Below, one piece after another: positions 5,251-20,405 of a stretch of 64,000 nucleotides of DNA. The DNA is from Kribbella jejuensis (GTDB taxonomy: Bacteria; Actinomycetota; Actinomycetes; Propionibacteriales; Kribbellaceae): the NCBI RefSeq assembly GCF_006715085.1, contig NZ_VFMM01000004.1, forward strand, positions 496,001-560,000. Reading direction: 5' to 3'. How positions within the stretch are numbered: position 1 is the stretch's first letter; each line of letters starts with the position of its first letter. A model generated the notes under the pieces. It was not told the origin of the DNA and ran no database searches. It was given only the letters and a program-made list of their open reading frames with translations. Position numbers and translations under genes: made by a program.

Positions 5251-5889
5251 ATGGAGGAACTCAGGCCGCTGCTGCTGTCGATCGCGTACCGGATGCTCGG
5301 GACGTTCGGTGACGCTGAGGACGTCGTTCAGGAGGCGTATCTGCGGCTGCATCGCGAGCCCGAGGTGACGTCGCCGAAGTCGTTCCTGACCACGGTCACC
5401 ACCCGGCTCGCGATCGACCAACTGCGGTCCGCCAGGCGACAGCGTGAGCAGTACTTCGGTCCATGGCTGCCGGAACCTGCCGTGGACGAGTACGTCGACC
5501 TGGCGGACCGGGCCGCGCTCTCGGAGGTACGGCGCTTCGTCGCGGCCGCCGAGGACGGCGAACTGGACGCGTTGGTCGCGCTCCTCACCCCGGATGCGAC
5601 GTTCACCGGCGACGGCGGCGGTAAGGGCGGCTTCCCCCGCCCGGTCCACGGTGCCGGCAACGTCGCGCGGTTGGTGATCGGCGCCTTCGGCAAGTTCCGC
5701 GGCCTGGCGACCGAGCCCGTGCACATCGGCGGTCAACCAGCGCTACGGATTCACGACGCCGCCGACCGCACCGTAGCGGTCTGGTCGTTCGTCGTTACCG
5801 AGGGCCGGATCGACGCTGTGCACGGCGTCGTGAACCCGGACAAGCTCACGCACGTCCAGCCGTCACGGTACTCGGACGACCAGGGCTGA
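5251..5889 (+). CDS. sigJ: ECF41 (SigJ-type) RNA polymerase sigma factor lacking region 4
   Basis: ECF sigma factors direct RNA polymerase to a small regulon; ECF41 members carry a SnoaL-like C-terminal domain that tunes activity. This 212-residue protein starts MEELRPLLLSIAYRML, has an intact sigma region 2 (about 1-65) and all three ECF41 hallmarks: WLPEP (72-76), DGGGK (121-125) and NPDKL (195-199). Usual length is about 290. The roughly 75-residue region 4 helix-turn-helix that should sit between WLPEP and the SnoaL domain is absent: residue 85 (ADRAALSEV) runs straight into RRFVAAAEDGELDALVALL. The frame is kept, so this is a clean internal deletion rather than a frameshift. ATG 5251 is preferred over 5242 from homology and the promoter position. 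Its 3' end overlaps the convergent kinase by 27 bases. Family assignment is sure; function without region 4 is not. Confidence 0.85.
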   Translation: MEELRPLLLSIAYRMLGTFGDAEDVVQEAYLRLHREPEVTSPKSFLTTVTTRLAIDQLRSARRQREQYFGPWLPEPAVDEYVDLADRAALSEVRRFVAAAEDGELDALVALLTPDATFTGDGGGKGGFPRPVHGAGNVARLVIGAFGKFRGLATEPVHIGGQPALRIHDAADRTVAVWSFVVTEGRIDAVHGVVNPDKLTHVQPSRYSDDQG

Positions 5890-6759
5890 CTCGTCTACTT
5901 CGGCTACGAGGGTGGCGCCGTCGGGGATGGTGTCGCCGTCGAGTTGGCGGCGTACTGGGCGTTCGGCCTGGACCTGGAAGCGGTGGCCGGTGAAGCGTTC
6001 GACGTGCCGTTCGCGCCAGGACTTGATCAGCAGACCGAGGGCGAGCCGCGGCCAGTGGGCGATCCGGCGTGGGGCGAGGACGACCAGGTCGATCCGGCCG
6101 TCGTCGGGGACCGCGTCCGGCAGCAGCGGGATGTTCGCCTGCAGCGTGCCGACGTTGCCGATCACCACGGTGCGCGCGCGACGGCGTACCGGCGGGTGGT
6201 CGTCGACGGTGATCTCCACCTGGACGAACGGATGGTTCAGGTTCTTCAGCGTCGAGACGACGTACGCGGCCCACCCGACGCGCTTCTTCAGTTCGTCGGG
6301 GGCGTCTTCGATGATCGCGGCGTCCAGCCCGAGGCCTGCCATCACCACGAAACGGTCGACGTCCAGTTGGTCGCCCTTGATCAGCACGCTGTCGATCCGC
6401 TGTTCCGAACCGTCGAGCAGCGCCGCCACCGCATCCTCCAGCCGGAGCGGGATGCCGAGATTGCGCGCCAGCAGGTTGCCGGTGCCGCCCGGCAGTACGG
6501 CGACCGGGATCCCGGTCCGCGCCAGCTCGGCGCAGACCACCCGGACCGTGCCGTCACCGCCCGCGACGAGGACCAGGTCCACCTGGTCGTCGACGGCGCG
6601 CCGGGCCATCGTCATCCCGGCGTCGTCGGCGGTCGTCTCGAGCCACAACGGCTCGGCGAACCCACGATCGCGGAGCGCCTGCCCGACCGTTTCACGGAAG
6701 GTGTCGCCGTCGACCTTGATCGGGTTCACGATTACGGCTGCCCGTCTGGCAGAACTCAC
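5863..6759 (-). CDS. Diacylglycerol kinase-like lipid kinase
   Basis: A 298-residue member of the DAGK catalytic / YegS-like family, which phosphorylates diacylglycerol, sphingoid or related lipids with ATP at the membrane. The N-terminus has VNPIK, then the nucleotide-binding GGDGT at 67-71 and PGGTGNLLARNLGIP, both diagnostic. The C-terminal half is the usual beta-sandwich with RIDLVVLAPR. No membrane segment is evident. GTG 6759 is chosen because GGTGG lies about 7 bases upstream; GTG 6771 is the alternative. The gene is divergent from the serine hydrolase with a gap of under 30 bases, so promoters must overlap. The true lipid substrate cannot be read from sequence. Confidence 0.85.
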   Translation of the reverse strand: MSSARRAAVIVNPIKVDGDTFRETVGQALRDRGFAEPLWLETTADDAGMTMARRAVDDQVDLVLVAGGDGTVRVVCAELARTGIPVAVLPGGTGNLLARNLGIPLRLEDAVAALLDGSEQRIDSVLIKGDQLDVDRFVVMAGLGLDAAIIEDAPDELKKRVGWAAYVVSTLKNLNHPFVQVEITVDDHPPVRRRARTVVIGNVGTLQANIPLLPDAVPDDGRIDLVVLAPRRIAHWPRLALGLLIKSWRERHVERFTGHRFQVQAERPVRRQLDGDTIPDGATLVAEVDESALVVRVP

Positions 6760-9295: not shown

Positions 9296-9305
9296 GACGG
9301 CGGGG

Positions 9306-9430
9306 CGCCCCTAGGGTTCCGCTGCTCGTCGAGGTGACGGGCAGGACTGGTCCGAGAGGGGAGGCGAGACCGCCGGCGATTCGTCTGCCGCGACGGTGTC
9401 GTTCCACGGCGGGACAAAAGCCCGGGAGGC
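9306..9430 (+). ncRNA. Guanidine-I (ykkC) riboswitch aptamer
   Basis: Conserved blocks of the ykkC class appear in order and spacing: CTAGGGTTCCG (9311-9321), GGACTGGTCCGAGAG (9344-9358), a variable stem, then ACGGCGGGACAAAAGCCCGGGAGG (9406-9429, quoted here only to mark the block). The class binds guanidinium and turns expression on. Genes downstream are exactly those usually controlled by it (DUF1989 pair, carboxylase part, allophanate hydrolase, transporter), which independently supports the call. Confidence 0.92.
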
Positions 9431-9447
9431 CTTGAAAGGCCCCGGGC
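9420..9447 (+). terminator. Riboswitch expression platform hairpin
   Basis: GCCCGG (9420-9425) pairs with CCGGGC (9442-9447) and GGCC (9428-9431) with GGCC (9438-9441), leaving a 2-base bulge and a 6-base loop. The left arm is part of the aptamer's own conserved 3' block, so aptamer folding and hairpin formation exclude each other. Guanidine binding should break the hairpin and allow read-through. The U-tract downstream is weak. Confidence 0.6.
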
Positions 9448-9486
9448 TGCTGTGTGCATTCCCGGGCCGATCCAGCGGAGGCCGGA

Positions 9487-11070
9487 ATGCCAGGATCAAC
9501 AACAGCATCCCCCGAAACACTGAGCACCGATCAACTGGGCGCACGAGATCTCGGCCGGTTCGGCTACGCCCAGCAGCTGTCCCGCCGGGTCGGCAGTTAC
9601 GCCTCGTTCGCGGCCGGCTTCTCGTTCGTCTCGATCCTCACCACCGTGTTCCAGCTGTTCGGCCTGGGCTTCGGTTTCGGCGGTACGGCGTTCTTCTGGA
9701 CCTGGCCGGCCGTTCTCGCCGGTCAGCTCACGGTCGCGTTGTGCTTCGCCGAACTCGCGGCGCGGTACCCGTTGTCCAGCGCGATCTACCAATGGGCCAG
9801 ACGCCTCGGTGGCGCCGTCGTCGGCTGGTTCGCCGGCTGGACGATGGTGATCGCGCAGATCATCACGCTGGCGACGGCAGCCATCGCGCTGCAGGTCGTA
9901 CTGCCCGCGGTCTGGCCCGGCTTCCAGTTGGTTGGCAGCAACCCCGCCCTGGCCTCCAAGGACGGCGCCGCGAACGCCGTCCTGCTCGGCTGCATCCTGC
10001 TCGCCGCCACGACCCTGCTGAACGCGACCAGCGTGCGGATCACGGCACTCGTCAACTCGGTCGGCGTGACGTGCGAGCTGATCGGCGTCGTGCTGATCGT
10101 CATCTTGTTGACGAGCCGAGCCGAGCGCGGCCCGTCCGTCGTCCTGCACACCACGAACCTCGACAGTTCGACCGGGTACGTCGTACCGCTGCTGATCTCG
10201 GCGTTGATGGCGGCGTACGTGCTCGTCGGCTTCGACAGCGCCGGTGAATTGTCGGAGGAGACGCACAAACCGCGCGCGACGACACCCCGGACTATCATCC
10301 GCGCGGTCGTCGCGTCCGGGGTCGGCGGCGCGTTCCTGATCGTCGCGGCGCTGATGGCCGCACCCTCACTGACCGACGGCGACCTCGCGACGCAAGGGCT
10401 CCCGTACGTGTTGACGAGCCGGCTCGGTACGACCACCGGCAAGCTGCTGTTGCTCGACGTCGCGCTCGCCGTCTGCGTGTGCACGCTCGCGATCCAGACC
10501 GCGGCCGCCCGGATGATCTTCTCGATGGCCCGCGACAACGTGCTGCCGGGCTCGCGCCAACTCCGCAAGGTGTCCACGCGGACCGGCACGCCGGTGGCCG
10601 CGACAGTGGTTCCGGGTGTGCTGGCCGCGGTCTGCCTGGTCGTGAACGTCGGCAACGCCGGCCTGTTCCTCGGCCTCGCCAGCGTCTGCATCATGCTGCT
10701 GTACGTCGCGTACCTGATGGTCACCACGCCCTTGCTGGTACGACGCCTCACCGGCGGCGGTCTGCCGAGCGGGACCGACGAGAACGGGCGACCGCTGTTC
10801 TCGCTCGGCCGGTTCGGGCCGCTCGTCAACATCGTTGCCGTGGGCTACGGACTCGCGATGGCGGTCAACCTCGGCTGGCCCCGGGCCGAGGTGTACGACC
10901 CGGCGGGCGCCGGCTGGTACCTGCACTACCTTCCGCTGATCACGCTCGGCGTCGTGGCCGTCGGTGGCGCGATCGCCTTCTACTTCCAACGCCCGGCGTA
11001 CTTCGCCTCGATCGGAGTGCCCGCCCGCGTCGCGGAGCCGGTCGTCGAACCGGAAGGGATCAGCGCATGA
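9487..11070 (+). CDS. APC-family permease, urea carboxylase-related type (UctT-like)
   Basis: A 527-residue amino acid/polyamine/organocation transporter with about 12 hydrophobic segments, the first starting near residue 40 (YASFAAGFSFVSILTTVFQLF) and a typical GFDSAGELSEET loop. Such permeases recur with DUF1989 and allophanate hydrolase genes, so the cargo is probably guanidine or a guanidino/urea-like compound. ATG 9487 is preferred to 9454 because GGAGG lies 5 bases upstream (9477-9481) and the upstream extension would overlap the leader. It is the first gene of the riboswitch operon and overlaps the next gene by ATGA. Confidence 0.85.
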   Translation: MPGSTTASPETLSTDQLGARDLGRFGYAQQLSRRVGSYASFAAGFSFVSILTTVFQLFGLGFGFGGTAFFWTWPAVLAGQLTVALCFAELAARYPLSSAIYQWARRLGGAVVGWFAGWTMVIAQIITLATAAIALQVVLPAVWPGFQLVGSNPALASKDGAANAVLLGCILLAATTLLNATSVRITALVNSVGVTCELIGVVLIVILLTSRAERGPSVVLHTTNLDSSTGYVVPLLISALMAAYVLVGFDSAGELSEETHKPRATTPRTIIRAVVASGVGGAFLIVAALMAAPSLTDGDLATQGLPYVLTSRLGTTTGKLLLLDVALAVCVCTLAIQTAAARMIFSMARDNVLPGSRQLRKVSTRTGTPVAATVVPGVLAAVCLVVNVGNAGLFLGLASVCIMLLYVAYLMVTTPLLVRRLTGGGLPSGTDENGRPLFSLGRFGPLVNIVAVGYGLAMAVNLGWPRAEVYDPAGAGWYLHYLPLITLGVVAVGGAIAFYFQRPAYFASIGVPARVAEPVVEPEGISA

Positions 11071-11672
11071 GCCACACGCATGAGCTTCCAGCGGCGGCGG
11101 CATGGTCGGCACCGGTCCGTGCGGGACGCACCGTCCGGCTGACGGCGCTCGGGGACAACGCGAACGCGTCGGTGCTGATCGTCGGCGCCGACCGGCTCGA
11201 TCGCCTGAACATCCCGGACACGTTGAAGTCGCAGATGTCCGCCCGGATCAAGCCAGGCATGGTGTTGATGTCGGACCGTGGTCAGGCACTGGCGACCGTA
11301 CTCGACTCGACCCTGGACTGGCACGACTGCTTGACCGGCGCGCTCCCCGGCAGGCTGCTCTTGCTGGAGCTGACCAAGCACGGGTTCGGCGAGGCCGATC
11401 TGCACGGCTGCATCAACTTCTTCAGCAAGGTCGCCGTCTCGGACTCCGCATCCCTCGAGTTCGTCCCAGGGCATGCAACCGCAGGTGACTCGGTGACGCT
11501 GCGAGCCGATCAGGACCTGCTGATCTTCATCTCGACCACGCCGCACGCCCTGTCCGACCTGCCCGGGGCGGGAGTCGCCGTACAGATCGAAACGCCCGAG
11601 CACACCGAGGACCCCGAACTCCGCGAGGAAGCGCAGCGCGCACTCCGACTGACCCGGGAGCTGATCGCATGA
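11067..11672 (+). CDS. Carboxyguanidine deiminase subunit (DUF1989, UAAP1)
   Basis: A 201-residue DUF1989 protein of the type long annotated as urea amidolyase-associated protein 1. Work on guanidine assimilation identified the UAAP pair as a two-subunit carboxyguanidine deiminase (CgdA/CgdB) producing allophanate and ammonia. Conserved metal-region residues are visible: DWHDCLTGA near 90 and HGCINFFSKV near 115. It starts in an ATGA overlap with the permease and ends in another with UAAP2, so the two subunits should be made in equal amounts. Which of the CgdA/CgdB names applies is not decided here, so no symbol is given. Confidence 0.88.
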   Translation: MSHTHELPAAAAWSAPVRAGRTVRLTALGDNANASVLIVGADRLDRLNIPDTLKSQMSARIKPGMVLMSDRGQALATVLDSTLDWHDCLTGALPGRLLLLELTKHGFGEADLHGCINFFSKVAVSDSASLEFVPGHATAGDSVTLRADQDLLIFISTTPHALSDLPGAGVAVQIETPEHTEDPELREEAQRALRLTRELIA

Positions 11673-12286
11673 CCGTCACCGCGACCACCGTCGGACTCGA
11701 CACCGTCGTGGACGCCGGCGACGGCGCGCTCGTCACCGTGCCCGCGGGTGGCCGGTTGCGGATCGTCGACCTGTACGGCAACCAGGCCGTCGACACGTTG
11801 TTCTACGACGCGCACGACATCGACAACCGGTACTCCGCGTTCGACACGATCCGCGAACAGCGGGCCGTCTTCCTGACCACCGGATCGCGCCTGCTGTCGA
11901 CCCGGCTGGACGAGCTCGCGGTGATCACCGACGACACGTGCGGCCGGCACGACACCGTCGGCGGCGCGTGCTCGCAGGAGAGCAACGTGATCCGGTACGG
12001 CGAGTCCACGCGGCACCAGCACGCCTGCCGGCAGACGTTCCTGCGGTACGGCGCGCAGGCGGGTATCGGGCAGCGTCAACTCACCCACAACATCAACTTC
12101 TTCATGAACGTACCGGTGACGCCGGACGGCGGCCTCACCTTCGAGGACGGGCTGTCCGCGCCCGGGAAGTACGTCGAACTGACGGCGAGCCGCGACCTGC
12201 TCGTGCTGATCAGCAACTGTCCGCAGATCAACAATCCTTGCAACGGCTGGAACCCGACACCGATCCAGCTGCTGGGCTGGTGGTGA
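11669..12286 (+). CDS. Carboxyguanidine deiminase subunit (DUF1989, UAAP2)
   Basis: A 205-residue DUF1989 partner of the preceding gene. It carries the fuller set of likely metal ligands: DDTCGRHD near 88, GGACSQESN near 98, HACRQTF, NINFFMNVPV and the C-terminal CPQINNPCNGWNPTPIQ. These match the family closely. Together with the previous protein it should deiminate N-carboxyguanidine to allophanate in the cytoplasm. Its stop overlaps the GTG of the carboxyltransferase gene, keeping the operon tightly coupled. Confidence 0.88.
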   Translation: MTVTATTVGLDTVVDAGDGALVTVPAGGRLRIVDLYGNQAVDTLFYDAHDIDNRYSAFDTIREQRAVFLTTGSRLLSTRLDELAVITDDTCGRHDTVGGACSQESNVIRYGESTRHQHACRQTFLRYGAQAGIGQRQLTHNINFFMNVPVTPDGGLTFEDGLSAPGKYVELTASRDLLVLISNCPQINNPCNGWNPTPIQLLGWW

Positions 12287-14244
12287 GGATGCCGGCGACC
12301 GTCACAGTTGTTGCTCCAGGCACCCAAACCACCGTGCAGGACCTGGCCGGCCGGCCCGGATTGTGGGATGTCGGCGTACCGCCGTCCGGCGCGGCCGACG
12401 AGCTCACGTTCGCGCTGGTCAACGCCGCGGTCGGCAATCCGGCTACCGCGGCAGGACTCGAGTGCGTACTGACCGGACCGGTACTGACCTGCGACGAGGA
12501 CCGGCTGGTCTGCGTCGGCGGAGCTGTCCGCAATGCGACCATCGGCAATTGGCGGCTCCGGCCTGGCCTGGTCGTCCGTTGGCCCGCCGGTACGGTGCTG
12601 GACGTCGGCCCGATCGACGGTCCCGGGATGCGCGGCTACGTGGCGATCCAGGGAGGCCTCGAGGTGCCACGGGTCCTCGGCAGCCGGTCGACGTTCATCC
12701 TCGGCGGCTTCGGCGGCCACGACGGCAAGCCGCTCGCGGCCGGCATACGGCTTCCGCTCGGCCGGCAGGAGAATCTGCTGACCCCGCAGTCGGTCGAACT
12801 GCCCGTGCTGTCGGATGCCTGGCAGCTCCGGGTGATCCCGGGACCCCACGGGGCGCCCGAGCACCTGACGATCGACGGCGTCGAGGCGTTCTTCGCCACC
12901 AAGTGGACAGTCGACCACCGGTCGGACCGCACCGGCGTCCGGCTGATCGGGCCGACGCCCGGCTGGGCCCGGACCGACGGCGGCGAGGCGGGCCTGCACC
13001 CGTCGAACGTGCACGACTCGGCGTACCCGGTCGGCGGCATCATGCTGTCCGGCGACACCCCGGTGATCGTCGGCAAGGACGGCCCGTCCCTCGGCGGCTT
13101 CGTCGTACCCGCCGTCGTCATCGAGGCCGATCGCTGGATGCTCGGCCAGTTGCGCGCCGGTGACTCGGTCCAACTGGTCCCGGTGACGCCCGAGGTCGCG
13201 TCCGAGGCGATCCGGTCTCGCCGCCGCTGGCTGACCGACCTCCGGCAAGATCCGGCTCCGGTCGCCGCCTCGGTCGGTACGCCGGACCGCCCGAGGACGC
13301 TGCACCGCGGCGAGCGCTCCGCGACGGCACCGTCGTACACGATCCGCTGCGCGGGCGAACGGCACCTGCTGGTCGAGGCCGGGCCGGCCGAGCTGGACCT
13401 CACGGTCCGGGTCTGGATCCACCTGCTCGCGCAGGCATTGCGCGACGACCGGCCGGCCGCTGTCACCGAGATCGTCGAAGGAGTGCGCTCGCTGCTCGTC
13501 GCGGTCGACTCCGCACGGATCGGGCTGACCGAGCTCGCCGAGCGGCTCGCGTTCCTGGCCGCCGGCCTGGACGATCCCGAGACGGTGGTGCTGCCGGCCC
13601 GCGAGGTGCTGCTGCCGATCGCGTTCGACCATCCCGAGGCGCACGAGGCGATGCGCCGCTACGCCACGTCGGTGCGGCCGGACGCGCCGTGGTGCCCGGA
13701 CAACGTCGAGTTCATCCGGCGGGTCAACGATCTGGCCGAACGCGACGAGGTGTTCGAGATCGTGCAGGCCGCGACGTACCTGGTGGTCGGTCTCGGCGAC
13801 GTGTACTTGGGCGCGCCGGTCGCCGTACCGATCGATCCGCGGCACCGGCTCGTCACCACGAAGTACAACCCGGCGCGGACCTGGACCCCGCAGAACGCGG
13901 TCGGCATCGGCGGGATCTACCTGTGCGTGTACGGGATGGAAGGGCCGGGCGGGTACCAGTTGGTCGGGCGTACCGTACCGGTCTGGCGGCTGTCCCCCGC
14001 CGACGAGCAACCATGGTTGCTGAGGCAGTTCGACCTGATCAGATTCACGCCGGTGAGCGCGGAGCAGCTCGCGCACGAGCGGGCCGAGATCGCTGCCGGG
14101 CGCGCGGACCTGAAGACCGCACCCGCGACGTTCTCGATCGCCGACGTACGCCGGATCGAGCAGGAGGCACCGATGGAGATATCGACCGTACGGGCCCGGC
14201 GCCGCGCCGCGTTCGAGGCCGAGCGGGCCCGGTGGGGCGCATGA
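12283..14244 (+). CDS. Free-standing carboxyltransferase of guanidine/urea carboxylase, lacking BC and BCCP domains
   Basis: A 653-residue protein made only of the central carboxyltransferase of urea/guanidine carboxylase. An AHS2/KipA-like half comes first (about 1-310, starting VVAPGTQTTVQDLAGR) and an AHS1/KipI-like half second (about 350-570), then the family C-terminus with YNPARTWTPQNAVGIGG. It ends at FEAERARWGA, exactly where the biotin carrier domain normally begins. Full enzymes are about 1,200 residues with an N-terminal biotin carboxylase and a C-terminal MKM biotin domain; neither is present here or in the neighbouring genes. The KipA-KipI order argues against a 5-oxoprolinase PxpBC fusion, and no PxpA is nearby. 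GTG 12283 overlaps the previous stop; ATG 12289 is an alternative. A shared acyl-CoA carboxylase alpha subunit could supply the missing domains, which is inference. Confidence 0.85.
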   Translation: MRMPATVTVVAPGTQTTVQDLAGRPGLWDVGVPPSGAADELTFALVNAAVGNPATAAGLECVLTGPVLTCDEDRLVCVGGAVRNATIGNWRLRPGLVVRWPAGTVLDVGPIDGPGMRGYVAIQGGLEVPRVLGSRSTFILGGFGGHDGKPLAAGIRLPLGRQENLLTPQSVELPVLSDAWQLRVIPGPHGAPEHLTIDGVEAFFATKWTVDHRSDRTGVRLIGPTPGWARTDGGEAGLHPSNVHDSAYPVGGIMLSGDTPVIVGKDGPSLGGFVVPAVVIEADRWMLGQLRAGDSVQLVPVTPEVASEAIRSRRRWLTDLRQDPAPVAASVGTPDRPRTLHRGERSATAPSYTIRCAGERHLLVEAGPAELDLTVRVWIHLLAQALRDDRPAAVTEIVEGVRSLLVAVDSARIGLTELAERLAFLAAGLDDPETVVLPAREVLLPIAFDHPEAHEAMRRYATSVRPDAPWCPDNVEFIRRVNDLAERDEVFEIVQAATYLVVGLGDVYLGAPVAVPIDPRHRLVTTKYNPARTWTPQNAVGIGGIYLCVYGMEGPGGYQLVGRTVPVWRLSPADEQPWLLRQFDLIRFTPVSAEQLAHERAEIAAGRADLKTAPATFSIADVRRIEQEAPMEISTVRARRRAAFEAERARWGA

Positions 14245-15833
14245 ACCACGAGTGGATCGCCCGGGTCGAGCCGGTCGCACCGCAGCCCGGGCCGTTGCGC
14301 GGGCTGACGATGGCGGTCAAGGACAACATCGATCTGGCGGGCGTACCGACAACGGCGGGCGACCCGCGCAACACCCGGCCCGCGGAGCGGAACGCGTTCG
14401 TGGTGGACCGGTTGATCGCGGCCGGCGCCGTACCGTTGGGCAAGACGAACCTGGACCAGTACGCGACCGGCCTGGTCGGCACCCGGTCGCCGTACGGGCC
14501 TTGTCACTCGGTGTTCTCCGAGCTGCATGTGTCCGGCGGATCGAGTTCGGGCAGTGCGGTCGCGGTGGCGAGTGGACAGGTCGATTTCGCGCTCGGCACC
14601 GACACGGCCGGGAGCGGCCGGGTGCCGGCAGCATTCAACCGGCTGATCGGCATCAAGCCGAGCCGTGGACTCGTGTCCGCGCGTGGCGTGGTCCCGGCCT
14701 GCCGGTCGCTGGACTGTGTGACCGTGATGGCGCGTACCGTCGCGACCGCGCGGGCGGCGTACGACGTGATGGTTGCCTACGACCCCGATGACGCGTGGTC
14801 GCGGCCAGTTGGTTTGTTGCCGCAGCGCCGGGCCGGACGCGGCGACCAGGCCGTCATCGGCGTACCGGACCTGGCGCTCGACCTGGATCCGTTGCATGCC
14901 GAGGCCTGGCAGGCGACGCTCGACGAGGCACATCGGCTGGGCGAGGTCGTCAAGGTGGACGTCCGGCCGCTGCTCGAGGCCGCTGACCTGCTGTACTCCG
15001 GGCCGTGGCTGGCCGAGCGCTGGCTGGCCTTCGGTGACAAGCTCGACGACGATCCGGCCGTCGACCCGGCGGTCCGAACGATCGTCCGCGCCGGCGAGTC
15101 GCTCACCGCGGCGGCCGCTTTTGCCGGTTTCGATCGGCTGGCCGAGCTGGCCCGCGCGAGTTCGTCCTTGTGGACGGAGGTGGATGCGCTGCTGCTGCCG
15201 GTCACACCCGGCCACCCCACGTTGGCCGAGGTCGCGGCCGATCCGATCGGCGTGAACAGCCGCTTGGGCCGGTTCACGAACATGGTGAACCTGCTGGATC
15301 TGTGCGCAATCGCCTTTCCTGGAACGGATCGTGCCGACGGCCTGCCGTTCGGGGTCCAACTGCTCGCACCGGCCGGTCACGACCATGAGCTGATCGATCT
15401 GGCGGCGTTGTGGTGCGGTGAACCGGTTCCGCCGCGCGCTTCGGACGACGTACTGCTGGCTGTCGCCGGCGCGCACCTCAGCGGCCAACCGCTCAACGAC
15501 GAACTCGTACGCCGCGGAGCCCGGCTCGCGTACACAGCCCGTACTGCGGCGTCGTACCGCATGTACCTCGTCGACGGCCCCCGCCCCGGCCTGACCCGAA
15601 CGCTGAACGACGAGCCCGGGCCGGGCATCGAAGTGGAGGTCTGGAAGCTGCCCACCGCCGAACTCGCCGGCTTCATGTCAACCATCGCGCCCCCGCTGAC
15701 CATCGGTCCCCTCGAACTGTCCGACGGCCAGCAGGTGCTCGGCTTCCTCTGCACTGCGGATGCCGCAGATCCGACCCAAGACATCACCAGCTGGGGCAGC
15801 TGGCGCGCGTACCTGGACGGGCGCGAAGCCTAG
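14241..15833 (+). CDS. atzF: Allophanate hydrolase
   Basis: A 530-residue amidase-signature enzyme that splits allophanate to ammonia and CO2, the final step of guanidine nitrogen release. Catalytic Lys27 (AVKDN), the GGSSSGS cis-Ser loop (99-105) and nucleophile Ser125 (DTAGSGRVPA) are all present. After about 440 residues of amidase fold there is the separate allophanate hydrolase C-terminal domain (ARTAASYRMYLV to DITSWGSWRAYL), which marks AtzF rather than a generic amidase. It begins in an ATGA overlap with the carboxyltransferase and is the last member of the core guanidine operon. Confidence 0.92.
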   Translation: MNHEWIARVEPVAPQPGPLRGLTMAVKDNIDLAGVPTTAGDPRNTRPAERNAFVVDRLIAAGAVPLGKTNLDQYATGLVGTRSPYGPCHSVFSELHVSGGSSSGSAVAVASGQVDFALGTDTAGSGRVPAAFNRLIGIKPSRGLVSARGVVPACRSLDCVTVMARTVATARAAYDVMVAYDPDDAWSRPVGLLPQRRAGRGDQAVIGVPDLALDLDPLHAEAWQATLDEAHRLGEVVKVDVRPLLEAADLLYSGPWLAERWLAFGDKLDDDPAVDPAVRTIVRAGESLTAAAAFAGFDRLAELARASSSLWTEVDALLLPVTPGHPTLAEVAADPIGVNSRLGRFTNMVNLLDLCAIAFPGTDRADGLPFGVQLLAPAGHDHELIDLAALWCGEPVPPRASDDVLLAVAGAHLSGQPLNDELVRRGARLAYTARTAASYRMYLVDGPRPGLTRTLNDEPGPGIEVEVWKLPTAELAGFMSTIAPPLTIGPLELSDGQQVLGFLCTADAADPTQDITSWGSWRAYLDGREA

Positions 15834-15844
15834 GGTAGGTGGGC

Positions 15845-17107
15845 ATGAGCCTGACGCCCGCCGAACAGAACGTACTGGAACGGATCGACGAACGACTGCT
15901 GATCCGCGTCACACAGGAACTGGTCCGCGCGCCTGGGCAGAACCCACCGGGCGAGGAGGCCGCGACGGTCGCCGCACTCGTGGCGGCCGCACGCGACCTC
16001 GACCTCGACGTGACGACTCGTTCTGTCGAGGCAGGTCGCGACAACGTGTCGGTGACGCTGTCCGGTGGCGACAGTCCCGGCCTGCTGTTGCTCGGTCATA
16101 CCGATGTCGTGCCGGTCGGCGACGGGTGGACGGTCGACCCGTACGGCGGGCTCGTGCGCGACGGGCGGATCTACGGGCGCGGTGCGTCCGACATGAAGGG
16201 CGGTCTGGCTGCTGCGCTGGCTGCCCTCGCGGCATTGCGTGGTACGGCTTTGAGCGGTCCGGTGGAACTGGCCGCCGTGGTCGACGAAGAGGAGACGGGC
16301 AAGGGGATCCGCGCGTTCATCGAGTCCGCTCAGCGCGCACCTGTGGATAACTCCGGTCCGACCAGCTCGCCGAGCGATAGACTTGAAGCGGAAAGGACAG
16401 GGGCGAAACACCAGTACGTCGGGTGCATCACAGCCGAGCCGACCGATCTGCAGACCATCATCGCGGCGCGCGGCGACTCGTACTTGCAGGTGGCGGTGCA
16501 CGGGCGTGCCTCGCACGCGGGTAACCCGGACGGTGGCGCCAACGCGATCTACGGCGCGGCGGCCGTCGTCGCGGAGATCGAACGCCTGCACGGCGAGCTG
16601 GCGCAGGCACCCCATCCCCTGCTCGGGCCCGCGACCTGGAGCGTCGGCCAGATCAACGGCGGCACCGGCGGCTCGATCGTGCCGGCCGACTGTGTGGTGG
16701 TCGCGGACCGCCGGCTCCTGCCGGGCGAATCACCCGCCGAGGTACTCGCCGACCTGGGCCGCCGGGTCGCCGCCCTGCGGTTGGAGGACCGTGAGCTGAC
16801 CGTCGAACTCTCCATGCCGATGGAAATGCCGGCCTTCGAAACCTCCGAGGACCACGAACTGGTACGCGTCACCGAGTCCGCCCGCTTCGACGCCGGCGGC
16901 CCACCCCTGCCCCTCGCCGGCTGGACCGCAGCCTGCGACGGCGGCTACATCGCCCGCGACCTCAGCATCCCGGTGGTCGTCCTAGGCCCCGGCTCAGTAA
17001 CCACCCAAGCCCACCGCGGCGACGAGTCGGTCGCAATCGCCGAACTCGTGACCGCGGCGCGCGCCTATGCGTTGATCGCCCTACGGCTGCTCGGTACGAC
17101 GGCGTGA
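15845..17107 (+). CDS. M20 family metallopeptidase/deacylase (ArgE/DapE type) with an inserted segment
   Basis: A 420-residue zinc-dependent amidohydrolase of the M20 family. Metal-site motifs are complete: LLGHTDVVPVGD near 80, GRGASDMKGG near 118, the DEEETG pair near 150, TAEPTD near 200 and HRGDES near the end; the dimerisation lid is ASHAGNPDGG. Acylated amino acids or N-substituted amides are the usual substrates. An unusual stretch of about 27 residues (bases 16334-16414) splits AFIESAQ from YVGCITAEP; it is richer in A and T than its surroundings and contains an exact DnaA-box match. ATG 15845 follows AGGGTAGG. It sits 11 bases after atzF and overlaps the next gene by GTGA, so it may ride on the guanidine operon. 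Confidence 0.85.
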   Translation: MSLTPAEQNVLERIDERLLIRVTQELVRAPGQNPPGEEAATVAALVAAARDLDLDVTTRSVEAGRDNVSVTLSGGDSPGLLLLGHTDVVPVGDGWTVDPYGGLVRDGRIYGRGASDMKGGLAAALAALAALRGTALSGPVELAAVVDEEETGKGIRAFIESAQRAPVDNSGPTSSPSDRLEAERTGAKHQYVGCITAEPTDLQTIIAARGDSYLQVAVHGRASHAGNPDGGANAIYGAAAVVAEIERLHGELAQAPHPLLGPATWSVGQINGGTGGSIVPADCVVVADRRLLPGESPAEVLADLGRRVAALRLEDRELTVELSMPMEMPAFETSEDHELVRVTESARFDAGGPPLPLAGWTAACDGGYIARDLSIPVVVLGPGSVTTQAHRGDESVAIAELVTAARAYALIALRLLGTTA

Positions 17108-18264
17108 GTCGGCGGGTCCTGCATTCGGGCTCGGTGCTTGATGTCCGTTCGGGTGACGTGCGGTCGGCCGATGTTGTGCTTGCCGACGATCGCATTGCCG
17201 ATGTGGGGATCGGACTGGACGGCGACGAGGGCGTCGACTGCACAGGCGCGTTGCTGGTGCCTGGCTTCATCGACTGTCACACCCACGTGTGCTTCGGGCC
17301 TGCTGGCGTGGATGCGCTGCAATTGCCGCGGTCGGCTCGGACGCTGTCCGCAGTACCGGTGTTGCGGACGTTGCTGCGGCTCGGGGTGACGACGGTGCGG
17401 GACGCGTGGGGCGCCGACGCCGGCGTACGGCTCGCGATCGAGAACGGGTGGATCGAAGGACCTGAGCTGCTGCTGAGTTTGCGGCAGGTCGGTACGACGG
17501 GTGCGATCGGCGACGTGTGGGCGCCGCGGACCGGGGCGCTCGAGTTCTACGGGGATCCGTCACTGCCGGATCCGATCTTCGACGGGGCCGACGCAGGACG
17601 AGCCGTCGTACGGCGGATGGTTCAGGCTGGGGCGGACTGGATCAAGGTGACGGCGAGCGGGTCGATGGCGCTCGGGATCGGCGTGCACGATGTACATCTG
17701 ACGTACGACGAGCTGGCTGCGGTGGTGGATGAGGCGCACCGGCGGGGTGGGCGGCGGGTGATGGTTCATGCGCATGGGGCGCGGGCGGCCGAGCTTGCGG
17801 CGCGCGCCGGGGCGGCGAGCGTGGAGCACGGAACCTACCTGGATGAGGCTGCGGTAGCTGCGATGGCGGATTGCGGGACCTGGTACGTGCCGACCTTGTC
17901 GGTTACTCAGTCGGATCCGGAGCACGGGCCGGACGGGGCGCCCGAAGCGCACCGGGAGTCGATGCGACTGGCGATCGAAGCCGGGGTGCGGATCGCGATG
18001 GGAACGGATGGTCCGGTACGGCCGCACTCAGAGGTGTTGCGGGAACTCAGCCATCTGGCAGCCGCCGGGTTGGGCGAGGCCGGGGCATTCCGGGCGGCGA
18101 CGATCGACGCGGCGCGGTTGCTCGGGCTGGCGGAGGATCGCGGGGAGATCGCGGTTGGCAAGCGTGCTGATCTGGTGGTGCTCGATGGGGCGACGCTGGA
18201 CTGCGCGGCCATGGAGGAGCGGCTCCGCCAGGTGTTTCACAACGGGGTCGAGGTCGTCCGTTGA
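17104..18264 (+). CDS. Amidohydrolase family protein (imidazolonepropionase/prolidase-like)
   Basis: A 386-residue metal-dependent amidohydrolase. Ligands of a binuclear site are visible in order: HTH near 58, the lysine of DWIKVTASG near 183 (probably carboxylated), HAHG near 222, EHGT near 243 and the catalytic Asp in MGTDGPV near 302. It closes with the usual GEIAVGKRADLVVLDG. The family includes Xaa-Pro/Arg dipeptidases and cyclic amide hydrolases; the substrate is unknown. It starts at GTG overlapping the M20 stop, which implies one transcript and perhaps sequential steps on the same nitrogen compound. Confidence 0.82.
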   Translation: MSRRVLHSGSVLDVRSGDVRSADVVLADDRIADVGIGLDGDEGVDCTGALLVPGFIDCHTHVCFGPAGVDALQLPRSARTLSAVPVLRTLLRLGVTTVRDAWGADAGVRLAIENGWIEGPELLLSLRQVGTTGAIGDVWAPRTGALEFYGDPSLPDPIFDGADAGRAVVRRMVQAGADWIKVTASGSMALGIGVHDVHLTYDELAAVVDEAHRRGGRRVMVHAHGARAAELAARAGAASVEHGTYLDEAAVAAMADCGTWYVPTLSVTQSDPEHGPDGAPEAHRESMRLAIEAGVRIAMGTDGPVRPHSEVLRELSHLAAAGLGEAGAFRAATIDAARLLGLAEDRGEIAVGKRADLVVLDGATLDCAAMEERLRQVFHNGVEVVR

Positions 18265-18297
18265 CTCTCACACGGTGTCAGACATTAGACAGCTCGT

Positions 18298-19593
18298 ATG
18301 TTGACAGCAGGAGAGGCTGCGGAGCGGATCCGCGTAGGGCAGACGACGTCACGAGAGCTCACTGAAGAGCTCCTTACCCGGATCGCCGCTGATACCGCGG
18401 TTAACGCGGTCGTGGAAGTGCGGCGGGAGTATGCGCTCAGCGCAGCAGATCGAGCCGATAGAGGGGGTGGGTCGTCGGGGGCTTTGCATGGGGTGCCGGT
18501 GACGGTCAAGGAGTGTTTTGATGTCGGGGGGATGCATACGACTTGGGGGAATCCGGCGTTTGCGGGGTTTGTGGCTCGGCGGGATGCGGTGGTGGTGGAG
18601 CGGTTGCAGCGGGCCGGGGCGATTGTTGTCGGGAAGACCAACGTTCACACGATGCTTGCCGACTTCGGGCAGACCACGAACGAGATCTACGGGCGGACCA
18701 ACAACCCCGCCGACCTCACCCGGACGCCCGGCGGATCGTCCGGCGGGGCGGCGGCCGCGCTGGCGGTAGGGCTCACGTATCTCGAGTACGGATCCGACCT
18801 GGTCGGATCGGTCCGGCTGCCCGCGGCGTACTGCGGCGTCTACGGACTGAAGCCCACCAACGGACTCGTCCCGCAACGCGGTTTCCAGCCCCCGGGTACG
18901 CCGTACGTCCCGAGCGAACTGCCCAACTTGTCGACCCTCGGACCACTCGCCCGCTCGGCCGCGGATCTCCGGATCGCCCTGCGCGCAACAGCCGGTCCCG
19001 AGGCGCCGTACTCGTACACGCTCCGCCCACCGCGACACCGACAGCTGAGCGACTATCGCGTAGGAATCGTCACTGACCACCCGGCCGCACCGGTCACCGC
19101 GGAGGTCGGTGACGCGCTGTCCAACACGATCGACGTCCTGGCGAAGAGCGGTGCGAAGATCGTTGAGAAGTGGCCGGACCGCGTCGACCCGAACGGACAG
19201 GCCGACGAATTCGGCCGCCAGGTCGAACTCTTCTTCGCCCTGCACGGCGGCGAACCCAGCTCGCTGACCGTCGACCAGCTCCTCACCACCGAACGCAACC
19301 GCCTGGCAGCCAGAGCCAAATGGCAGCAGTACTTCGAGAACGTCGACGTCTTCCTCTGCCCGACCAGCTTCACCGTCGCGTTCCCGCACGGCTCGACCAC
19401 CATCGACGGCCGGCCGTACGAGGCGCAGGTGTTCTGGATCGCGCACGCGTCGCTCATCGGCCACCCCGCCCTCAGCATGCCGATCGGCCGGACGGCCGCC
19501 GGGCTCCCGACCGCCGCGCAAGTCATCGGCCCCTGGCACGAGGACGACACCGCCATCACCTTCGCCGAACTCCTCGGCCAACTGGTTGACTGA
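18298..19593 (+). CDS. Amidase-signature family amidase
   Basis: A 431-residue amidase. The Ser-Ser-Lys triad is recognisable: Lys in VTVKECFD, the GGSSGGA loop and the nucleophile in SDLVGSVRLPA. The C-terminus lacks the extra allophanate hydrolase domain, so it is not a second AtzF. It probably releases ammonia from a simple amide. ATG 18298 lies 33 bases after the amidohydrolase stop with no convincing ribosome site; TTGACT (18261) and an AT-richer ATTAGA block (18284) suggest its own promoter with a short leader. It shares strand and theme with the guanidine genes but may be separately controlled. Confidence 0.83.
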   Translation: MLTAGEAAERIRVGQTTSRELTEELLTRIAADTAVNAVVEVRREYALSAADRADRGGGSSGALHGVPVTVKECFDVGGMHTTWGNPAFAGFVARRDAVVVERLQRAGAIVVGKTNVHTMLADFGQTTNEIYGRTNNPADLTRTPGGSSGGAAAALAVGLTYLEYGSDLVGSVRLPAAYCGVYGLKPTNGLVPQRGFQPPGTPYVPSELPNLSTLGPLARSAADLRIALRATAGPEAPYSYTLRPPRHRQLSDYRVGIVTDHPAAPVTAEVGDALSNTIDVLAKSGAKIVEKWPDRVDPNGQADEFGRQVELFFALHGGEPSSLTVDQLLTTERNRLAARAKWQQYFENVDVFLCPTSFTVAFPHGSTTIDGRPYEAQVFWIAHASLIGHPALSMPIGRTAAGLPTAAQVIGPWHEDDTAITFAELLGQLVD

Positions 19594-19598
19594 CAGCC

Positions 19599-20405
19599 AT
19601 GTTCGCGATCGGTGAGTTCGCCCGCCACGGCCGGGTGTCGATTCGGATGCTGCGGCACTACGATGCGATCGGCCTGCTGCGACCGGCGCACGTCGATCCC
19701 GCGACCGGGTACCGCAGCTACACCGCGGCCCAGCTCGCCGACCTGAACCGGATCGTCGCGCTGAAGGATCTCGGTTTCTCCCTCGATCAGGTCGCCACGA
19801 TGATCGCCGGCGATCCGAGCCCGGCCGAACTCCGTACGATGCTCACCCTGCGGCGTGCGCAGCTCGAGACGGCCGTTGCCGAGAGCAACGCCCGGCTCGC
19901 GCAGGTCGAGGCCCGGCTGCGCGGCCTGGAGGCCGAGATCCCGGCCGCGGACATCATCGTCAAAGAATTGCCCGCCGTACGACTCGTCGGTCTGACCGCG
20001 ACCGCCGCGAGCTTCACGCCCGACGACATCACGCCCGTCGTCCACCCGCTCTGCGCGGAACTCGGCCGACGTCTTCCGGACTCCGACGTACGACCCGCCG
20101 GCCGCCTCACCTGCCTGTACGAACAAGCCGACGAGATCGTCGTACGGGCGACCGTACCTGCTGCGGTCGATGCCGGAGGCAACCTCAACGGCCTCGAAGT
20201 CCTCGACCTGCCGGGGATCCGGGCGGCGACCCTGGTACATCGCGGCCCGATCGACCAGGTCCTGCCGTCCTGGCAGGCCCTTGCCCGCTGGCTCGAAGAG
20301 AACGACCGGAGCGCCGCCGAACCGGCCCGCGAGCTCTACCTCGACACCCCGGAGGATCCGGCCGGCTGGGTCACCGAACTACAGCAGCCGTTCCTCACCG
20401 CGTGA
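19599..20405 (+). CDS. MerR family regulator with GyrI-like effector domain
   Basis: A 268-residue activator of the BltR/BmrR kind. Residues 1-70 form the winged helix (FAIGEFARHGRVSIRMLRHYD, then DPATGYRSYTAAQL), 75-110 the dimer coiled coil, and 115-268 a GyrI-like small-molecule pocket. The lack of a Cys cluster rules out a metal sensor. It starts 6 bases after the amidase stop and so may be co-transcribed; a drug or hydrophobic ligand is the usual inducer. Its target is not obvious, since no MerR-type 19-20 bp spaced promoter was noticed nearby. The 3' end overlaps the convergent FAD/Fe-S gene by 27 bases. Confidence 0.85.
   Translation: MFAIGEFARHGRVSIRMLRHYDAIGLLRPAHVDPATGYRSYTAAQLADLNRIVALKDLGFSLDQVATMIAGDPSPAELRTMLTLRRAQLETAVAESNARLAQVEARLRGLEAEIPAADIIVKELPAVRLVGLTATAASFTPDDITPVVHPLCAELGRRLPDSDVRPAGRLTCLYEQADEIVVRATVPAAVDAGGNLNGLEVLDLPGIRAATLVHRGPIDQVLPSWQALARWLEENDRSAAEPARELYLDTPEDPAGWVTELQQPFLTA

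Follow-up and report, generated by a model that had tools for sequence, protein, structure and literature searches.

A guanidine-riboswitch operon of Kribbella jejuensis encodes a carboxyltransferase that lacks biotin carboxylase and carrier domains

Guanidine carboxylase is normally one long chain. The enzyme has been described as biotin-containing and ATP-dependent (PMC11410670), and the same paper supplies two of its signature residues, numbered here as in the K. lactis enzyme: Asp1584, and position 1330, at which guanidine carboxylases carry Asp but urea carboxylases Asn, a distinction also drawn in PMC12186494. Lys1605 is the proposed general base of the carboxyltransferase (CT) reaction (PMC5770610). 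In 2011, a study of biotin carboxylase (BC) raised the question of whether urea-type CTs without a BC of their own collaborate with other BCs (PMC3199775). In mycobacteria, AccA3 is common to three carboxylases, one alpha subunit thus serving several CT subunits (PMC11001197). Here, we describe a guanidine-riboswitch operon in a 64,000-nucleotide stretch of the K. jejuensis genome (NZ_VFMM01000004.1, positions 496,001 to 560,000, forward strand; hereafter, the window), the CT of which possesses neither a BC nor a biotin carboxyl carrier protein (BCCP) domain. This bare CT is found in many actinobacteria and probably obtains activated CO2 in trans from the alpha subunit of a housekeeping acyl-CoA carboxylase.

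The original prediction for this DNA, a guanidine-I aptamer, a permease, two DUF1989 subunits, a 653-residue CT, and the allophanate hydrolase AtzF joined by 4-base overlaps, is borne out by profile searches and by the sequence itself. The operon comprises the following features, genes being listed in their order after the aptamer:

9300..9430, + strand: guanidine-I (ykkC) riboswitch aptamer (RF00442)
9420..9447, + strand: hairpin re-using the 3′ strand of the aptamer, a probable expression platform judging from the fold of the whole leader
9487..11070, + strand: APC-type permease, probable guanidine importer (PF13520; TIGR03428, “permease, urea carboxylase system”)
11067..11672, + strand: UAAP1, CgdA-like DUF1989 subunit of carboxyguanidine deiminase (PF09347, TIGR03425)
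11669..12286, + strand: UAAP2, CgdB-like DUF1989 subunit (TIGR03424)
12283..14244, + strand: bare KipA-KipI-type CT of 653 amino acids, without BC and BCCP domains (PF02626 + PF02682)
14241..15833, + strand: allophanate hydrolase, AtzF (TIGR02713; PF01425 + PF21986)

Carboxyguanidine deiminase subunits and allophanate hydrolase thus adjoin the CT, as in guanidine-pathway operons. The overlaps read ATGA (permease/UAAP1), ATGA (UAAP1/UAAP2), GTGA (UAAP2/CT), and ATGA (CT/AtzF). That between UAAP2 and the CT depends on the GTG start of the latter at 12283, which gives 653 codons; an alternative ATG at 12289 gives 651 codons, and the overlap is lost. UAAP2 ends inside the start of the CT, so there is no room for an upstream BC domain. 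Both PF02626 and PF02682 match the CT above their cut-offs, identifying it as a KipA-KipI carboxyltransferase. Against the guanidine/urea carboxylase model TIGR02712, it covers positions 446-1106 of 1201 with 763.7 bits, which does not reach the cut-off of 1303.85. Full-length enzymes carry BC before this stretch and BCCP after it; both are absent here, and model positions 1131-1201, where carriers match, are unmatched. By sequence and by fold, its best PDB matches are 3va7 and 5i8i (TM-score 0.81-0.82 by query length; 38% identity to 3va7). The structure used was one AlphaFold model with a mean pLDDT of 71.5 and values below 50 in the active-site stretches, and it was therefore used for the fold only and not for placing individual residues such as Glu399 (see below).

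That the CT stops at its own domain borders with no BC or BCCP gene nearby, as originally proposed, was upheld: a tblastn search of the 64-kb window, with AccA-type proteins and free carriers of the same genome as queries, revealed neither domain, and the same queries recovered BC/BCCP in three control loci. A TIGR02712 search of the 7.5 Mb genome revealed no full-length urea/guanidine carboxylase; it matched the bare CT, a separate KipA/KipI pair, BC-containing proteins, and carrier domains only. The original prediction had stated that a full-length enzyme under its own guanidine riboswitch would speak against it. No such enzyme was found, and the one further guanidine-I aptamer that the genome search recovered lies ahead of an MFS transporter gene.

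Within the genus, the CT is present in 24 of 38 Kribbella genomes and consists of the CT part only in all 24, which rules out a local deletion of BC/BCCP in one strain. Relatives carrying the missing domains, another finding that would have counted against the prediction, exist among more distant organisms only. A guanidine-I aptamer lies 2.7-3.2 kb upstream on the same strand in 24/24 CT-bearing genomes, and among the 14 genomes without the CT there was one weak match (42.3 bits) and 13 had none (Fisher p 2.6e-9, although species are not independent; at most 75 first-look candidates were scored per genome). The window copy matches the whole RF00442 model (1-107) with 61.8 bits (E 1.1e-10) and hence has the conserved aptamer core and structure. 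It falls just short of the gathering score of 63, and a scan of the window at the gathering threshold listed no RNA family match; it is the sole exception among the 24 CT-linked aptamers of the genus, the other 23 exceeding 63 bits.

Among named genomes, two peptide patterns were used to choose relatives, a scan that favors close homologues. The resulting 52 named loci are from Kribbella, Nocardioides, Actinokineospora, Pseudonocardia, Goekera, Blastococcus, Amycolatopsis, Planosporangium, Kutzneria, Yinghuangia, Actinospica, Dactylosporangium, and other or unclassified actinobacteria. Genes called beside the CT include UAAP2 (52), UAAP1 (51), the permease (44), and AtzF (39); several loci are interrupted by contig ends, and the calls, made with a codon-composition script and BLAST against the window proteins, have approximate starts and miss some genes. 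Neither BC nor BCCP was found in any of the 52 within the flanks examined. Six loci of other genera were scanned for RNA families, and all six possess a guanidine-I aptamer above threshold. The bare layout is thus widespread in actinobacteria and not peculiar to the K. jejuensis genome.

One critical question is what the CT acts upon. Four of its residues were compared with those of related enzymes:

13042..13044, + strand: Met254, at the guanidine/urea specificity position (K. lactis 1330), from an alignment of clade members
13477..13479, + strand: Glu399 (K. lactis 1478), a clade-specific acidic residue, in 49/49 covered clade loci
13798..13800, + strand: Asp506 (K. lactis Asp1584), conserved wherever covered, in 47/47 clade loci
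13861..13863, + strand: Lys527 (K. lactis Lys1605), Lys in 47/47 covered clade loci and in the 20/20 loci read in genus g11 (see below)

Asp1584 and Lys1605 are thus both represented in the CT. Met occupies position 1330 in 26/26 of the clade members first sampled and in 51/51 of the named loci covering it (the 52nd does not). By comparison, 30 full-length actinobacterial enzymes have Asp (19) or Asn (11), and 12 bare CTs of the other group described below have Asp. Under the published Asp/Asn rule, a Met-bearing CT is not a guanidine carboxylase, and guanidine, its presumed substrate, is indicated by the riboswitch and operon rather than by the active-site signature. Position 1478 is Pro in the full-length actinobacterial enzymes aligned and in 18 of the 20 g11 loci, the remaining two reading Asp in a pairwise alignment. 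One might speculate that Glu399 replaces the acidic group lost from 1330. In the genus, some 30 otherwise near-invariant CT positions are altered.

A BC-specific model revealed three BC proteins in K. jejuensis. The AccA3-like protein (591 residues) matches the PDB chain of mycobacterial acyl-CoA carboxylase alpha3 with 863.6 bits. The one that we label AccA1-like adjoins an AccD-type gene and an apparent acyl-CoA dehydrogenase gene. The third (L013:5426-10882, contig C3) is 1818 residues long and combines BC with carrier domains; across the genus, a BC match in an open frame of 1833-2060 codons is present in 38/38 genomes. BC proteins number three in all 14 CT-less Kribbella genomes and three (22 genomes) or four (two genomes) in those with the CT; the extra BC of genome G001 adjoins CT-like and carrier genes, and that of G008 is a 1088-residue protein. 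These counts being alike with or without the CT, no dedicated BC-BCCP protein tracks it. In 33 other genomes with a bare CT, the number of BC proteins lies between one (G052, 78% complete) and 10, Goekera and Blastococcus having two each. The two BC proteins of Goekera and of Blastococcus are an AccA3-like one, 70-71% identical to that of Kribbella, and an AccA1-like one with its own AccD-type neighbor; one of the two must perform the BC step there, provided that biotin is used and the assemblies are complete. In a sample of 394 genomes drawn evenly from the class, 14 encode a BC protein matching the urea carboxylase model at E <= 1e-165, and three of these (G122, G277, and G359) also have a bare CT. 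These high-scoring proteins were considered as dedicated partners, and the five of the 14 whose loci were read (G122, G277, G359, G103, and G284) were rejected, each lying beside its own AccD-type gene.

A precedent for the pairing comes from PDB entry 9yx5, which was among the KipA/KipI structures found by the CT fold search. By its title, it is the long chain acyl-CoA carboxylase complex of M. smegmatis with MSMEG_0435-MSMEG_0436 bound; chain matches indicate that the latter two are KipA/KipI homologues of the CT and that AccA3 is among the chains. As far as title and chain matches go, the entry shows that a CT-type fold can sit on an AccA3 complex.

The same sample of 394 genomes contains a second bare group. 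Full-length enzymes were found in 34 genomes and bare CTs in 15, two having both, and 11 more genomes matched through a BC protein only. Twelve of the 15 bare-CT genomes fall in one family, probably the Mycobacteriaceae, since two of its members, G420 and G040, both with a bare CT, possess an AccA3 that closely matches the M. smegmatis chain of 9yx5 over all or nearly all of its length (1269 and 1171 bits). Genus g11 of this family is mixed: 78 of the 198 genomes sampled from it have a match, of which 25 are full-length and 54 bare, one genome (G575) having both. In 20 g11 loci that were read (seven full-length, 13 bare), UAAP2 lies beside the CT in 6/7 and 13/13, respectively, and Asp1330, Asp1584, and Lys1605 are kept in all 20; the same Asp-bearing active site therefore occurs with and without built-in BC and BCCP. 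In G575 (L295, L296), deiminase genes were called beside the bare form only. A TetR-like gene is present in 18 of the 20 loci (L289-L308; some at only 30-34% identity) and was also seen by eye in L099, L101-L103, and L105-L108. At L107, L306, and L308, a BC-BCCP protein of 1127-1129 residues, presumably pyruvate carboxylase from its size, is encoded a few kb from the bare CT. The other bare loci read have no such protein, and we treat its position as local gene order, although it could conceivably be the BC source at those three loci.

Trees were built from 72 rows and, after thinning, from 61. The clade of the window CT forms one side of a branch with a support of 100 (72 rows) and 96/100 (61 rows). 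The second bare group is likewise one clade (99; 100/99), placed among full-length actinobacterial enzymes. The 61-row tree does not settle where the Met-bearing clade stands among full-length enzymes from other phyla. On the best tree, BC and BCCP are likely to have been lost independently in the two clades, which falls short of proof.

From these observations, the following scheme may be drawn. Guanidine would bind the leader RNA and turn on the permease; after its carboxylation, UAAP1/UAAP2 would deiminate the product to allophanate, which AtzF would then hydrolyse. The carboxylating enzyme would be split, the operon supplying the CT alone. An acyl-CoA carboxylase alpha subunit (BC-BCCP), most likely AccA3-like, would load biotin with CO2 at the expense of ATP, and the lone CT would receive the carboxyl group from the biotin arm of that subunit, much as several AccD subunits do from AccA3. 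We consider it probable that the CT of this guanidine-induced operon receives its CO2 in trans from a housekeeping AccA subunit, most likely the AccA3-like one; the CT-AccA interaction, catalysis, and the use of guanidine are what we infer. Trans supply is the best explanation for the conserved active site, the lack of a dedicated partner, the genus in which bare and full-length forms are mixed, and the 9yx5 precedent. The original prediction had already offered a shared alpha subunit as donor, and this emerges as its best-supported part, given the absence of a full-length enzyme, the conserved bare form, the catalytic residues, and two hosts whose BC proteins are all AccA-type. The broader proposal that a third class of guanidine-type CT, bare and bearing Met, drives actinobacterial guanidine assimilation with activated CO2 from AccA3 is a tentative one.

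Several results weigh against trans supply to a guanidine carboxylase. AccA-type subunits occur in CT-bearing and CT-less genomes of the genus alike and therefore do not point to the CT specifically. The MSMEG_0435-0436 chains of 9yx5 are of the two-protein KipA/KipI type and not fused. The CT has Met254 in place of the Asp1330 expected of a guanidine carboxylase. The setting in g11 is looser, with AtzF in 11 and the permease in nine of the 20 loci, and no guanidine riboswitch above threshold was found in the eight second-group loci of the class sample that were scanned. Lastly, a single bare clade survives an approximately unbiased test (p 0.151), and two independent losses are accordingly not claimed.

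The CT might work in trans upon something other than free guanidine, Met selecting, for example, a substituted guanidine, with guanidine serving only as the riboswitch signal. The invariance of Met in the clade, set against Asp in guanidine and Asn in urea enzymes, argues for this, as do the M20 hydrolase, amidohydrolase, and amidase that extend some Kribbella operons. Yet UAAP2 in 52/52 and AtzF in 39/52 loci, some cut by contig ends, make up the standard route from carboxyguanidine, the guanidine-I aptamer accompanies the CT in 24/24 and 6/6 loci, and Glu399 could, speculatively, restore the acidic group; we regard a different substrate as unlikely. The donor rather than the substrate is at issue if the carrier is not the BCCP of AccA3 or AccA1 but a stand-alone BCCP loaded by some BC domain. 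K. jejuensis encodes such a protein, 73 residues long and TB7.3-like (L015:5157-5378, contig C1; NF004547, 107.5 bits), and Blastococcus, Goekera, and one of the two Nocardioides genomes that were searched also have carriers, in short open frames of 85, 145, and 85 codons. The neighbors of the K. jejuensis carrier look by eye like a sigma factor and an anti-sigma factor rather than carboxylase genes, and it has no closer tie to the CT than AccA3 has, which makes this route improbable.

Biotin may also not be involved at all, an alternative that the original prediction had raised and that has less support than trans supply. The CT would then resemble PxpB/PxpC, the 5-oxoprolinase subunits, which we take to act without biotin, and proceed, for instance, via carboxyphosphate or substrate phosphorylation; the shared fold, the operon devoid of BC and BCCP, and the approximately 30 changed near-invariant positions are consistent with this. 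Against it, Lys1605 and Asp1584 are kept and do not, by eye, align with the same residues in the PxpB-like sequence of the same genome. The CT scored only 45.3 bits against PxpB (cut-off 145.55) and 138.8 bits against PxpC (cut-off 500), far under both, and one genus has Asp-bearing CTs of the second group in both forms, joined to BC-BCCP and bare. A biotin-free reaction thus appears improbable too. Finally, the bare CT could be a decaying relic or a non-catalytic partner in an operon with another purpose. Two of three domains are lost, and UAAP1 is shortened in most of the Kribbella loci aligned, but catalytic residues kept across many genera, the 4-base overlaps, and the conserved riboswitch make decay very hard to credit.

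As to the remaining genes of the operon, the permease (678.7 bits against TIGR03428; cut-off 740.45) and UAAP1 (148.2 bits against TIGR03425; cut-off 205.95; scan started at 11073) remain under their cut-offs, and UAAP2 (296.2 bits against TIGR03424; cut-off 284.7) and AtzF (621.8 bits against TIGR02713; cut-off 511.05) exceed theirs. The permease has an alternative GTG start at 9454. UAAP1 (11067-11672) lacks approximately 25 internal residues relative to other genera, a gap common to nearly all Kribbella loci aligned, L217 being the exception. UAAP2 has motifs in common with the aligned proteobacterial proteins. Downstream of the operon lies an extension present in only part of the genus:

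15839..19593, + strand: M20 hydrolase, amidohydrolase, and second amidase; accessory genes

Together with a MerR-type regulator (window 15839-20405), these genes are kept in some Kribbella but not in all; among the 52 named loci, M20 was found in 14, the amidohydrolase in six, and the amidase in 10. The M20, amidohydrolase, amidase, and MerR genes may extend the pathway to substituted guanidines.

In the leader, pairing of the aptamer sequence GCCCGGG with either of two CCGGGC-type partners farther downstream was seen in 24/24 tails. These 55-base tails were folded without the aptamer, and the hairpin is therefore assigned its switching role only by inference. The second guanidine-I aptamer of the K. 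jejuensis genome (61.4 bits) and the MFS gene that follows it lie at L011:5311-5410 and 5460-6629 (C1:1920311 onward). Four relatives (L171-L174) were examined; in two, MFS homologues follow the aptamer (70%; 42-47% in two pieces), L174 retains only a 53-residue MFS remnant, and L171 has no MFS match. The transporter is a possible guanidine exporter outside the SMR family.

A literature search that left most subscription journals outside its reach revealed no paper on a bare guanidine carboxylase, its layout, or the 9yx5 complex. Annotation by the signature residues or by the TIGR02712 cut-off would overlook or mislabel this widespread form. With an operon that can be induced and two or three named candidates for the partner, the question posed in 2011 becomes directly testable, and the Met substitution offers a second lead, to guanidine recognized differently or to a new substrate. 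If AccA3 is the partner, nitrogen assimilation in actinobacteria also draws on a hub of their lipid synthesis; were the broader proposal true, AccA3 would be a general carboxyl donor for AccD, KipA/KipI, and fused CT folds, and nitrogen scavenging would be coupled to fatty-acid and mycolate supply.

Compared with full-length guanidine/urea carboxylase (TIGR02712; K. lactis urea amidolyase, 5i8i; urea carboxylase, 3va7), the CT shares the fold and domain order and keeps Asp1584 and Lys1605, whereas BC and BCCP are lacking and Met replaces Asp/Asn at 1330. UAAP1/UAAP2 lie upstream, as in the Cupriavidus, Pantoea, and Rhizobium operons, and AtzF lies downstream, as in Cupriavidus and Rhizobium; those three operons employ an ABC transporter, in contrast to the APC permease here. 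PxpB/PxpC (KipI/KipA) and MSMEG_0435-0436 (3mml, 9yx5) display the same fold but are two separate proteins; K. jejuensis has a distinct cluster of similar appearance, L016. The M. smegmatis locus msmeg_2184-2189, which the second-group loci resemble, has the annotated order permease, two conserved hypotheticals, urea amidolyase, and allophanate hydrolase (PMC4222082) and is induced on nitrogen limitation (PMC4617892); judging from related genomes, msmeg_2187 would be a bare CT. The locus is controlled by AmtR, which had no known effector, urea and amino acids being without influence (PMC4222082); guanidine is a candidate. The proposed arrangement resembles that of the actinobacterial AccA3/AccD carboxylases, in which one BC-BCCP alpha subunit serves several CTs (PMC11001197), with the difference that the CT here belongs to the KipA-KipI (urea) rather than the AccD type and presumably acts on a guanidine compound.

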